Positions 39,633 through 41,863 of a stretch of 41,863 bases of DNA are shown one piece after another. Source of the DNA: Candidatus Puniceispirillum sp. (lineage in GTDB: Bacteria; Pseudomonadota; Alphaproteobacteria; Puniceispirillales; Puniceispirillaceae); assembly GCA_016778895.1 (NCBI GenBank), contig JADHOR010000013.1:1-41863 (forward strand), in the 5' to 3' direction. The notes below the pieces were generated by a model. The model was not told the DNA's origin, made no database searches, and saw nothing but the letters and a program-made list of their open reading frames with translations. How positions within the stretch are numbered: the stretch's first letter is position 1; each line of letters starts with the position of its first letter. A program made the position numbers and the translations under genes.

Positions 39633-40697
39633 ATGTCGACACCGATTAATCGCATTGCCGCCGATCTGGAGATGATCAAAGATGCCAATTTTAACAGCAT
39701 TATTGACGTGCGCTCACCGGCTGAATTTGCTGATGATCATATGCCGGGCGCTATTAACCTGCCGGTACTTGATGATAATGAGCGTGCGCAAATTGGCACC
39801 ATCTACAAACAGGTAAACCCGTTTGAGGCAAAACGCGCCGGGGCGGCACTTGTGGCTAAAAACATCTCCGCACATCTGCAAAGCCAGCTTGCCATGAAAG
39901 GCCGTGATTGGCGGCCGCTGGTCTATTGCTGGCGGGGGGGGCAGCGAAGCGGATCGATGGCGCGCATCTTTAGCGATATTGGCTGGCATAGCACAGTGAT
40001 TGAGGGTGGCTACAAAGCCTATCGCAAGACTGTTCTGGATCAGCTAGACGACGTGCCAGCACGGTTTCGCCTGATTGTGTTATCGGGTGCAACCGGCACG
40101 GCCAAAACCCATATTTTACGCGCAGCTGCCAAAATGGGTGCACAGGTTTTGGATCTTGAGGCACTCGCCAATCATCGCGGGTCATTGCTTGGCAGTGAGC
40201 CCGGATCGCTGCAACCTGCTCAGCGGCTATTTGAGTCTCATTTGCTTGCTGTCATGTTGAAATTTGATCCGGCGAGACCAGTTTTTATCGAGGCTGAAAG
40301 CAATAAGATTGGCCAGATACACCTTCCGGCCGCGCTATGGGCGTCAATGCGTAAGGCTAGCCGCGTCAGCCTTATTGCCCCGATTGACGCACGAATTGCC
40401 TTTCTGCAACGCGATTATCGACACATCATTGAACAGCATGAAAATCTGATGGAACTGCTTGGAGGGCTGCGCCATCGTTACAGCGCGGTAACCCTTTCCG
40501 AATGGCAGAAAACGATTAAGGCGGGTGACTGGAACCGCTTTGTTCGCAGTTTGCTTAAAACGCATTATGACCCGTCTTACGCGCGCTCAACCGCATCGAG
40601 GCCGCTGACCGATATTCTGACACTCACAGCAACCACGCTTGATGACGATGACATCCACCGCCTTGCTGGCAAGCTAGCTGAACTCGACCCGCGCTAG
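39633..40697 (+). CDS. mnmH: tRNA 2-selenouridine synthase
   Basis: Also called SelU. It replaces sulfur by selenium in 2-thiouridine at the wobble position of certain tRNAs, using selenophosphate. The 354-residue protein has an N-terminal rhodanese domain with catalytic C99 in VYCWRGGQRSGSMA and a C-terminal P-loop domain. The P-loop reads GATGTAKT (152-159), with Ala where most P-loops have Gly before the Lys. The block FIEAESNKIGQIHLP is typical of the family. It is 44 bp downstream of the SelD fusion. I see no selA, selB or selC in the window, so selenium use here may be limited to tRNA modification. Confidence 0.93.
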   Translation: MSTPINRIAADLEMIKDANFNSIIDVRSPAEFADDHMPGAINLPVLDDNERAQIGTIYKQVNPFEAKRAGAALVAKNISAHLQSQLAMKGRDWRPLVYCWRGGQRSGSMARIFSDIGWHSTVIEGGYKAYRKTVLDQLDDVPARFRLIVLSGATGTAKTHILRAAAKMGAQVLDLEALANHRGSLLGSEPGSLQPAQRLFESHLLAVMLKFDPARPVFIEAESNKIGQIHLPAALWASMRKASRVSLIAPIDARIAFLQRDYRHIIEQHENLMELLGGLRHRYSAVTLSEWQKTIKAGDWNRFVRSLLKTHYDPSYARSTASRPLTDILTLTATTLDDDDIHRLAGKLAELDPR

Positions 40698-40816: not shown

Positions 40817-40891
40817 TCCCCGGTAGCTCAGCGGTAGAGCAAGCGACTGTTAATCGCTTGGCCGGCGGTTCGAATCCGTCCCGGGGAGCCA
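40817..40891 (+). tRNA. tRNA-Asn (GTT)
   Basis: Seven-pair acceptor stem TCCCCGG / CCGGGGA, D-arm AGCTCAGCGGTAGAGC, anticodon loop CTGTTAA with GTT, T-arm GGTTCGAATCC, discriminator G and encoded CCA. Its 3' end is the last core-genome sequence before the composition changes, so it is a candidate attachment site. Confidence 0.96.
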
Positions 40892-40992
40892 CTTTCTTTC
40901 ACGCAATAAATCAGTCACTTAGGTCTTTATTGGCTCCGCTCTCGGGTCAAGAGATTAATTGGATTCGTTCACATTTAATTTACATTTATCAC

Positions 40993-41079
40993 CTAGTATT
41001 TCGCCAATTCACCTGCAACCATTGTAAGTGCTTTTTCGGTGTTTTTTGTTGAACGACCTGTGATGAGTAAATTGCTCAC
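40993..41079 (-). CDS. Possible 28-residue peptide ORF
   Basis: From a GTG start the minus strand encodes 28 residues with a protein-like composition (SNLLITGRSTKNTEKAL, then MVAGELAKY). There is no good ribosome site, and the open frame continues upstream without an ATG. It may be a small protein or the tail of a decayed gene. I do not recognise it. Confidence 0.25.
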   Translation of the reverse strand: MSNLLITGRSTKNTEKALTMVAGELAKY

Positions 41080-41102
41080 AAATGTAAGCTGACTTAGCAG
41101 CG

Positions 41103-41246
41103 ATGTATAACGAATACAGAGAACGGAGATCAGCCGGCTAACGAGCCGCAATCGATGCTCGTAATGCAACTGAGGAAGCCGTTAGAGAAAAAGCAAAAGC
41201 ACTCGGCTACAGCTACCACAGAATTAACTCTTCATTTTGGTTCTAG
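41103..41246 (+). pseudogene. Small broken ORF with an in-frame TAA
   Basis: From the ATG at 41103 the frame encodes MYNEYRERRSAG, then meets TAA (41139-41141), and continues for 34 codons of protein-like sequence (RAAIDARNATEEAV, later KALGYSYHRINSSFWF) to a TAG. The second part has no start codon of its own. This suggests a 47-codon gene interrupted by one stop, or a stop that is read through. I do not recognise the family. It is divergent from the 28-residue frame, 23 bp away. Confidence 0.35.
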
Positions 41247-41265
41247 CTAGCACAAAGAGTGCAAA

Positions 41266-41283
41266 GGAAGAGCATCCTCTTCC
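41266..41283 (+). other. Perfect 7-bp hairpin
   Basis: GGAAGAG and CTCTTCC flank a CATC loop just after the broken ORF and 28 bp before the terminator. Together the two hairpins look like the 3' half of a small structured RNA, but this is inference. Confidence 0.4.
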
Positions 41284-41311
41284 ATAATCTAAAGGCGACT
41301 ATTGACAATCA

Positions 41312-41341
41312 GCCCCGTTGGTTCGCCAGTGGGGCTTTTTG
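41312..41341 (+). terminator. Intrinsic terminator with TTCG tetraloop
   Basis: An 11-bp stem (AGCCCCGTTGG / CCAGTGGGGCT, two G-U pairs) is capped by TTCG and followed by a run of five T. It ends whatever is transcribed from the region after tRNA-Asn. Confidence 0.88.
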
Positions 41342-41410
41342 GTCCAATGAGGACAGCACATGCTTAGGAACCATTGAATAATGATGTGGCGAAGACTATC
41401 TAAACTGCTC

Positions 41411-41424
41411 TTTGTTTAAACAAA
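41411..41424. promoter_or_regulatory. Perfect 14-bp palindrome, candidate operator
   Basis: TTTGTTTAAACAAA is fully self-complementary. It lies 18 bp upstream of the ATG at 41443, a natural place for a dimeric repressor or activator to act on that gene. Confidence 0.45.
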
Positions 41425-41442
41425 CAGGGGAATTGACTAATT

Positions 41443-41688
41443 ATGGCAAAAGGACCAGCAGCGAAGAAACAGACAGCACCGAAGAGTGCAGCAGTGCCTA
41501 AAGTAGCTGCAAAGAAACGTGGTCGTCCGGCTAAAGCTGCACCAAAGGTTGCGCAGGCAGTTGTTGCTGAAGCACCTCAGAAGAACGCCTTTGAGGAGAA
41601 GTTTGGTGAAGGCACGGCCTTTGACTTGGATTACGGCAAACTATTGATCATTGCATTGTGTGTCTACATTGCAGTTCAGGTCAGCTAA
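41443..41688 (+). CDS. Small Lys/Ala-rich protein with AT-hook-like motif and C-terminal membrane segment
   Basis: An 81-residue protein that I do not recognise. Residues 1-40 are basic and rich in Lys, Ala and Pro, with KKRGRPAK near 28-35, close to the GRP core of AT-hook DNA-binding motifs and to histone H1-like tails. Residues 48-65 are more acidic (NAFEEKFGEGTAFDLDYG). The last 15 or so residues are hydrophobic (LLIIALCVYIAVQVS) and could be a tail anchor. This combination suggests a protein that ties nucleic acid to the membrane, but that is inference. A GGGG-containing site lies about 15 nt before the ATG, a palindrome lies just upstream, and a strong terminator follows, so it appears to be a single-gene unit. 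It belongs to the low-G+C segment after tRNA-Asn. Confidence 0.75.
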   Translation: MAKGPAAKKQTAPKSAAVPKVAAKKRGRPAKAAPKVAQAVVAEAPQKNAFEEKFGEGTAFDLDYGKLLIIALCVYIAVQVS

Positions 41689-41711
41689 ACACGTAGACCA
41701 AAGATCAATTC

Positions 41712-41744
41712 AAGCTCATCAGTCAACGCTGGTGGGCTTTTTTT
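41712..41744 (+). terminator. Intrinsic terminator after the 81-residue gene
   Basis: An 11-bp stem (AAGCTCATCAG / CTGGTGGGCTT, two G-U pairs), a 6-nt loop and a run of seven T, 24 bp after the stop codon. Confidence 0.88.
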
Positions 41745-41783
41745 GCTACTTGACATACTGCTGACGTAAACAGAGGATGTACA

Positions 41784-41863
41784 ATGAATTCTTTAAAGAT
41801 TGGAATGGCAAGCATAGTTGCAATAGGAGTGGGTCTGTTAGCGAGAGATGTGGTGGGTAGTGG
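41784..41863 (+). CDS. Unknown protein with N-terminal hydrophobic segment, cut by window end
   Basis: An ATG preceded by AGAGG at good spacing opens a frame that stays open to the window end (26 full codons). The visible residues, starting MNSLKIGMASIVAIGVGLLA, look like a signal peptide or membrane anchor. A TTGACA lies about 30 bp upstream, but I see no well-spaced -10. No family can be named from so little. Confidence 0.5.
   Translation, partial: MNSLKIGMASIVAIGVGLLARDVVGS

Follow-up and report, generated by a model that had tools for sequence, protein, structure and literature searches.

A Probable Phage-Related Remnant at the tRNA-Asn Gene of a SAR116-Type Genome

The tRNA-Asn Locus and the Borders of the Insert

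The window, by which we mean the whole stretch of 41,863 nucleotides that was analyzed, ends at position 41863, where contig C42 of a SAR116-type assembly (Candidatus Puniceispirillum sp., 2.17 Mb in 61 contigs) also stops. Close to this end lies a gene for tRNA-Asn (40817-40891), the CCA of which is encoded in the DNA, and upstream of it stands a gene that we take to be selU-like, the homologs of which lie directly upstream of tRNA-Asn in relatives too. The features of the locus, which continues onto contig C41 of the same assembly, are as follows.

39633-40697, + strand: presumed selU-like gene of 354 aa (ORF), the left flank of the site
40817-40891, + strand: tRNA-Asn (GTT), found by ARAGORN and Rfam; the attachment gene, which the insertion left intact
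40845-40891, + strand: attL core, nucleotides 29-75 of the tRNA, of which nucleotides 29-73 are repeated at C41:838-882
40892-41863, no strand: left 972 bp of the insert, with low G+C and the contig overlap; p59 and p96 are found here only in this genome
41070-41231, + strand: broken ORF, interrupted by two in-frame stops; its relative is an 84-aa ORF in the viral contigs L100 and L101
41311-41336, + strand: intrinsic-terminator-like hairpin
41443-41688, + strand: p81, an intact small protein of 81 aa with a basic N-terminal half (KKRGRP), a nearly invariant C-terminal helix, and relatives in phage contigs
41712-41739, + strand: intrinsic-terminator-like hairpin downstream of p81
41784-41863, completed at C41:60-239, + strand: p59, 59 aa (ORF), hydrophobic by eye
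C41:268-558: p96, an ORF of 96 aa between p59 and attR
C41:838-882: attR, a decayed copy of tRNA-Asn (nucleotides 29-73) with 40 of 45 bases retained, directly before hisIE
C41:923-1594, - strand: presumed hisIE, beyond attR

The sequence-only reading had placed the start of an integrated element directly after tRNA-Asn, on the grounds of a drop in base composition, strong terminators, and ORFs that it called tiny, broken or unknown. The drop is real, as the 972 bp downstream of the tRNA (40892-41863) have 44.2% G+C, which is below every 972-bp window sampled at 50-bp steps across positions 1-40816 (minimum 46.4%, mean 52.0%). Terminators are likewise present, with two terminator-like sites on the + strand at 41311-41336 and 41712-41739, and six on both strands of the 2,064 bp scanned, against a shuffle mean of 2.5. 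The ORFs are indeed small; that all are broken does not hold, since p81 and p59 are intact, the ORF at 41784 continuing unbroken into C41 to a total of 59 aa.

The window closes with 139 bases that recur without a mismatch as the start of C41, and a search of the 61-contig assembly found this stretch only at these two contig ends. The join of C42 to C41 rests on this overlap and on synteny, not on reads. Beyond the join, the second copy of the tRNA-Asn 3' end that an integrated element should leave was found in degenerate form at C41:838-882 (40/45), followed by genes that are presumably hisIE, hisF and, by resemblance, the remainder of the his operon. In comparison, the best match to the 45-base core was 25 in 1000 shuffles, and also 25 on either strand of window positions 1-40700. 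From the end of the tRNA to attR, the insert thus measures 1,670 bp (972 bp on the window and 698 bp at C41:140-837) with 43.7% G+C, and it is bordered, as mobile elements and flexible islands are, by a tRNA 3' end and its direct repeat.

This size presumes that the overlap is one stretch assembled twice. Were it instead a true direct repeat, more element DNA could lie unassembled between C42 and C41, and the island would be larger. The start of C42, the sole other contig end checked, overlaps no other contig, so contig ends in this assembly do not all carry such an overlap, and tandem inserts occur at the tRNA-Asn site in genomes G115 and G030; the 139-bp stretch is, on the other hand, unique to the two ends, and the p59 ORF that starts inside it runs intact onto C41. 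We consider this larger island distinctly unlikely, and describe the insert as 1,670 bp in what follows.

The Same Site in Related Genomes

Among 136 genomes searched, most of them fragmented, 35 had an intact tRNA-Asn with downstream DNA, and in 14 of these, the window's own genome (G000) included, hisIE follows on the same stretch. Relatives without the insert had been named as the comparison to make, and one was found: in G002 the site is empty, with the hisIE match starting from base 25 after the tRNA. This distance is 411-693 bases in G004, G005, G006, G007, G009, G012, G013, G015 and G020, and it rises to 1,759 in the window's genome, 1,942 in G022, 4,754 in G115 and 7,398 in G030. The G011 contig carries only a 3' fragment of the tRNA, which ends 24 bp before the hisIE match. 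Neither p59 nor p96 was found at the site in any of the 12 other relatives (besides G002) with tRNA and hisIE on one stretch, nor were the two found there in the remainder of the 35 genomes surveyed, and a p81 relative occurs at the site in G115 alone among the surveyed relatives, in a different arrangement.

Further copies of the tRNA 3' end, of at least 40 nt, lie downstream in 6 of the 35 genomes (G000, G010, G030, G113, G115, which has two, and G127), with shorter matches of 16-28 nt in G016, G030 and G037. A tyrosine integrase related to any of five query integrases stands within 3 kb of tRNA-Asn in G016, G037, G115 and G134 (4/35). Together with the empty site of G002, the different inserts at the same place in G010, G022, G030, G115 and others give the pattern of a genomic island. 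We did not find the opposite arrangement, with relatives sharing the same genes here and carrying no second attachment copy and no integrase. The proposal of an integrated element at tRNA-Asn is thus borne out by the attR copy, the empty site, the integrases beside the tRNA in relatives, and the phage attachment sites described below.

The short gaps have to be weighed against this, as intervals of 400-700 bp that contain no att copy are frequent at the tRNA-Asn site in the genus, and the insert could in principle be ordinary intergenic DNA grown by drift, its tRNA-like stretch a chance match or ancestral duplicate. We regard this as highly improbable, given that attR lies at the expected border with 40 of 45 bases against 25 for the best chance match, and that the insert is low in G+C and holds phage-like genes.

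An informative counterpart to the insert, taken here as an integrated element, is found in G115, with the order selU, tRNA-Asn, a 104-aa gene (DUF3764), att2, an OsmC-like gene, a 56-aa hydrophobic ORF, a p81 relative, an integrase, att3, p126 and hisIE. Both att copies are clear (62/64 for att2 and 58/63 for att3), the p81-bearing piece is 2.8 kb long, and the integrase within it is a tyrosine integrase of 322 aa (PF00589, E 1e-11). Along the direction of transcription, G115 reads integrase, p81, small hydrophobic protein and enzyme-like gene, with which the order p81, p59 (hydrophobic), p96 in the window's insert agrees; elsewhere in the order, p81 does not keep these neighbors.

Between tRNA-Asn and hisIE lie five 3' ends of phage endolysin genes, one in G022, two in G030, and two in G115, one of them with a stop (stretches L046, L038 and L084). 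A function of these ends at the DNA level was considered and rejected: in an alignment of eight sequences read by eye, similarity between different endolysin types does not extend past the stop codon and terminator, or does so only slightly, and we therefore read the ends as scars.

We also note pieces at tRNA-Asn that are bounded by one or two repeated tRNA 3' ends (L028 in G010, L038 in G030, L084 in G115, L144 in G113, and L145 in G127). Copies of the 5' part of the gene (nucleotides 1-38 to 1-55) were seen in L053, L059 and L152, and also in G054 and G114, some of them at contig ends; one such copy lies about 2 kb upstream of the intact tRNA in G023, and G034 has two.

Integrases, Phage Contigs, and the Genes of the Insert

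An integrase, which the sequence-only reading had suggested seeking, was not found in the element. A blastx search of both flanks of the insert against five integrases returned no integrase or remnant of one, only chance matches (best E 0.28), such that the insert does not carry the integrase that a tRNA-integrated island would have of its own. The five Pfam integrase matches of the genome all lie on other contigs, none of them related to the G115 integrase at E 1e-10, and a further truncated integrase lies on C43. Flexible islands at tRNA genes often lose their integrase, and we class the insert as an island remnant because of its borders.

Integrases that may act at this tRNA were found in viral DNA. 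Scanning IMG/VR, the contigs of which are predicted viruses, for the exact 25-nt end of tRNA-Asn gave 15 stretches, five of them with the whole tRNA. Four others (L125, L130, L133 and L134) have no whole tRNA and match 47-52 nt of its end at 100%, including an exact copy of the attL core; in each, this attP lies within 180 bp of a match to an integrase that is 34-38% identical to that of G115 (E 4e-39 to 1e-68). In the other 6 of the 15 stretches, the tRNA match spans 42-54 nt at 91-94%. A single-subunit-type (T7-like) RNA polymerase (phrog_414) is encoded by L125, L133 and L134, a primase-helicase (phrog_239) by L125 and L133, and an endolysin of one common type (phrog_315) by L130, L133 and L134. 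Separately, we observed a 14-kb viral contig (L128, 279-14479) with a whole tRNA-Asn, a 45-nt repeat of the tRNA end at its far end, and, adjoining the tRNA, a 389-aa ORF that looks integrase-like by eye.

The attP sites of the four contigs are followed within 400 bp on their right by 3-7 copies of the heptamer TCGCTTG/CAAGCGA, where about 0.05 are expected, and have 0-1 copies on their left. In 8 of the 35 genomes, the 300 bp that follow tRNA-Asn also contain at least three copies of this heptamer, the sequences of two of them (G004 and G015) being almost identical, and we infer that these repeats are candidate integrase arm sites. The 1,670 bp of the insert, unlike the T7-like phages with attP at tRNA-Asn, hold none. 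Thus, the integrase type of those phages may not be the one responsible, and insertion by it is not supported.

Given that phage contigs with matching attP exist, the insert could also be a mini-cassette or satellite that was never autonomous: lacking its own integrase, it would have been inserted and moved by that of a phage which infected the cell and shared the att core. In G010, G030 and G115, the first pieces span just 0.9 kb between att copies and have no integrase that we could find, which would fit such elements. The p81-bearing piece of G115 has an integrase of its own, however, and the endolysin 3' ends in the gaps of G022, G030 and G115 speak for the decay of larger elements; we therefore judge this origin unlikely and prefer that of a once larger, phage-related element.

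The genes of the insert point to phages as well. The broken ORF is related to the 84-aa ORF of L100 and L101 (tblastx, 39% over 54 codons, E 2e-7 and 4e-7), and both contigs also carry relatives of the p81 C-terminus. The two contigs are of the HMO-2011 type, the DNA polymerase and integrase of L100 being 63% and 56% identical to those of Puniceispirillum phage HMO-2011. No ORF in the insert exceeds about 105 aa, which is too short for the replication and structural genes of this phage type (helicase, primase and DNA polymerase; portal, capsid and terminase). The insert carries genes related to the HMO-2011 type and is not classed as an HMO-2011-type prophage. An L100-type attP at tRNA-Asn was also considered, and the stretches of L100-L104 that were searched hold no tRNA-Asn match.

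The p81 gene has 21 loci in varied places in 16 of the 136 genomes of the order (that of G026 being weak, E 3e-4), 21 loci in IMG/VR, and 31 in a genome collection, of which 15 are titled Candidatus Puniceispirillum or SAR116, two are presumably G002 and G018, and 14 are titled otherwise, some of them perhaps phage DNA. In the IMG/VR loci the ORF mostly has 38-65 codons from stop to stop; in L110-L114 it has 128-134 codons, with the helix near the ORF start. When the last 30 codons are compared, 17 base differences and no residue change separate the window from G005:C25, and 26 base differences and two residue changes separate it from phage contig L094. Of the 20 pairs listed, 19 have a dS that exceeds 1.8 or is so high that no value can be given. 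With the residues nearly unchanged and silent sites mostly saturated, these codon comparisons indicate strong purifying selection on the C-terminal peptide. The N-terminal half is variable, and is missing from all four aligned phage copies.

No Pfam, PHROG or NCBIfam model scores above its cut-off or names p81, and tblastn against a phage collection that includes HMO-2011 gave no match. The Pfam AT_hook score (14.0 bits) is below the cut-off of 17.4, and we therefore do not claim an AT-hook for p81. The structure model has a mean pLDDT of 59.9, a low confidence, and we rely on no part of it other than the C-terminal helix (59-80). A related integrase or integrase fragment lies within 7 kb of p81 at 5 of the 21 loci in the clustering, in addition to G115; in G030:C6 a fragment is about 6 kb away. 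We also observed a second p81 copy in the window's genome (G000:C43:1392-4609, L026), with a truncated tyrosine integrase and an ORF of 367 aa close by, and, from ORF reading, recurring small proteins near p81 in several genomes that resemble dimeric alpha/beta-barrel types.

For p96, relatives of which occur elsewhere in seven other genomes of the order, the structure model (mean pLDDT 89.5) finds its best PDB matches at E 7e-5 to 1e-3 and 5-16% identity, mostly among dimeric ferredoxin-like or antibiotic-biosynthesis-monooxygenase-like folds, and suggests only a dimeric alpha/beta-barrel-like fold. An NCBIfam profile search returned matches below cut-off only, and searching a viral structure library with predicted structures gave no useful name. 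Relatives of p126, the gene beyond att3 in G115, were found at 27 IMG/VR loci; a short p81 relative lies near a p126 relative in L100-L103, and the p126 copy in L100 has further relatives in four records of Melnitz phages (61%, E 4e-29) and in phage C48C1 (38%).

Origin of the Insert and Comparison with Known Systems

Taking these observations into account, the insert is very probably a shrunken prophage or phage-related island that was put in at tRNA-Asn, has decayed, and is now immobile. The features of the borders are explained by site-specific insertion at the tRNA 3' end through a tyrosine recombinase, with later loss and decay. The incoming attP would have matched nucleotides of about 29-75 of the tRNA, so that crossover would have restored the full tRNA on the left (attL) and placed a partial copy on the right (attR), before hisIE. 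The integrase would then have been removed by a later deletion, attR would have drifted at 5 of its 45 bases, and one phage-like ORF would have broken, with p81, p59 and p96 retained. That an integrase was formerly present and lost, the order of these events, and the type of integrase responsible are our inference.

As to what p81 does, a speculative reading, which we consider quite unlikely in its entirety, is that a phage membrane microprotein was taken over by bacteria. Its nearly invariant tail-anchor helix, which various types of marine phage encode, usually in a very short ORF, would have been joined in SAR116 lineages by a basic N-terminal half, AT-hook-like in some copies, and the protein might sit in the membrane and affect DNA from there, for example by blocking the entry of further phages or by tethering DNA. 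It would then be selected cargo, which keeps scars at tRNA-Asn and elsewhere.

Insertion at tRNA genes is of a kind already known; what is new is the tRNA-Asn site and the p81 peptide. We found no published description of this site among titles and abstract openings, which is no proof of absence. HMO-2011-type podophages have SAR116 and Roseobacter RCA strains as hosts; in some subgroups a tyrosine integrase is present in most members, and phage CRP-3 integrates at the 3' end of tRNA-Met (PMC9038755, PMC6918029). The relatives of p81 and of the broken ORF in L100 and L101 are the likeness to this type; the insert differs in having no ORF long enough for replication or structural genes, and in lying at tRNA-Asn, whereas the searched part of L100 has no tRNA-Asn attP.

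The integrase-bearing marine phage groups G16 and G18 were linked to SAR116 through an attP that equals a host tRNA (PMC3861242). L125, L130, L133 and L134 fit the same logic, an exact tRNA fragment with an integrase, which does not imply membership in either group. Additive flexible genomic islands at tRNA genes in Alteromonas (PMC4119200, PMC5217437), and the tRNA-Lys island of Ca. Methylopumilus, which measures 330 bp to 42 kb and in which the final 20 nt of the tRNA are repeated (PMC10872708), share with our locus the same position across relatives, the presence or absence of cassettes, repeated tRNA 3' ends, and many unknown genes. The insert differs from them in its host (SAR116), in its tRNA (tRNA-Asn), and in being a single decayed 1.7-kb unit with phage-like genes.

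Tycheposons, known from Prochlorococcus, are associated with tRNA genes and a tyrosine recombinase, and belong to aquatic hosts with small genomes. The insert resembles them in its tRNA association and in its aquatic, small-genome host. It is not one of them by size or content, at 1.7 kb with no recombinase found, against the 4-200 kb with cargo described for them (PMC10872708).

SAR116 is an abundant ocean group that is hard to grow, and tRNA-Asn, which lies beside his genes in part of the group, is a landing site for phages and islands in it. The exact attP-attB match ties uncultured phage contigs to SAR116-type hosts, and decayed att copies and endolysin ends are a record of past infections. 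Finally, the p81 peptide, which phages and bacteria have conserved almost without change, offers a well-defined target for functional tests.
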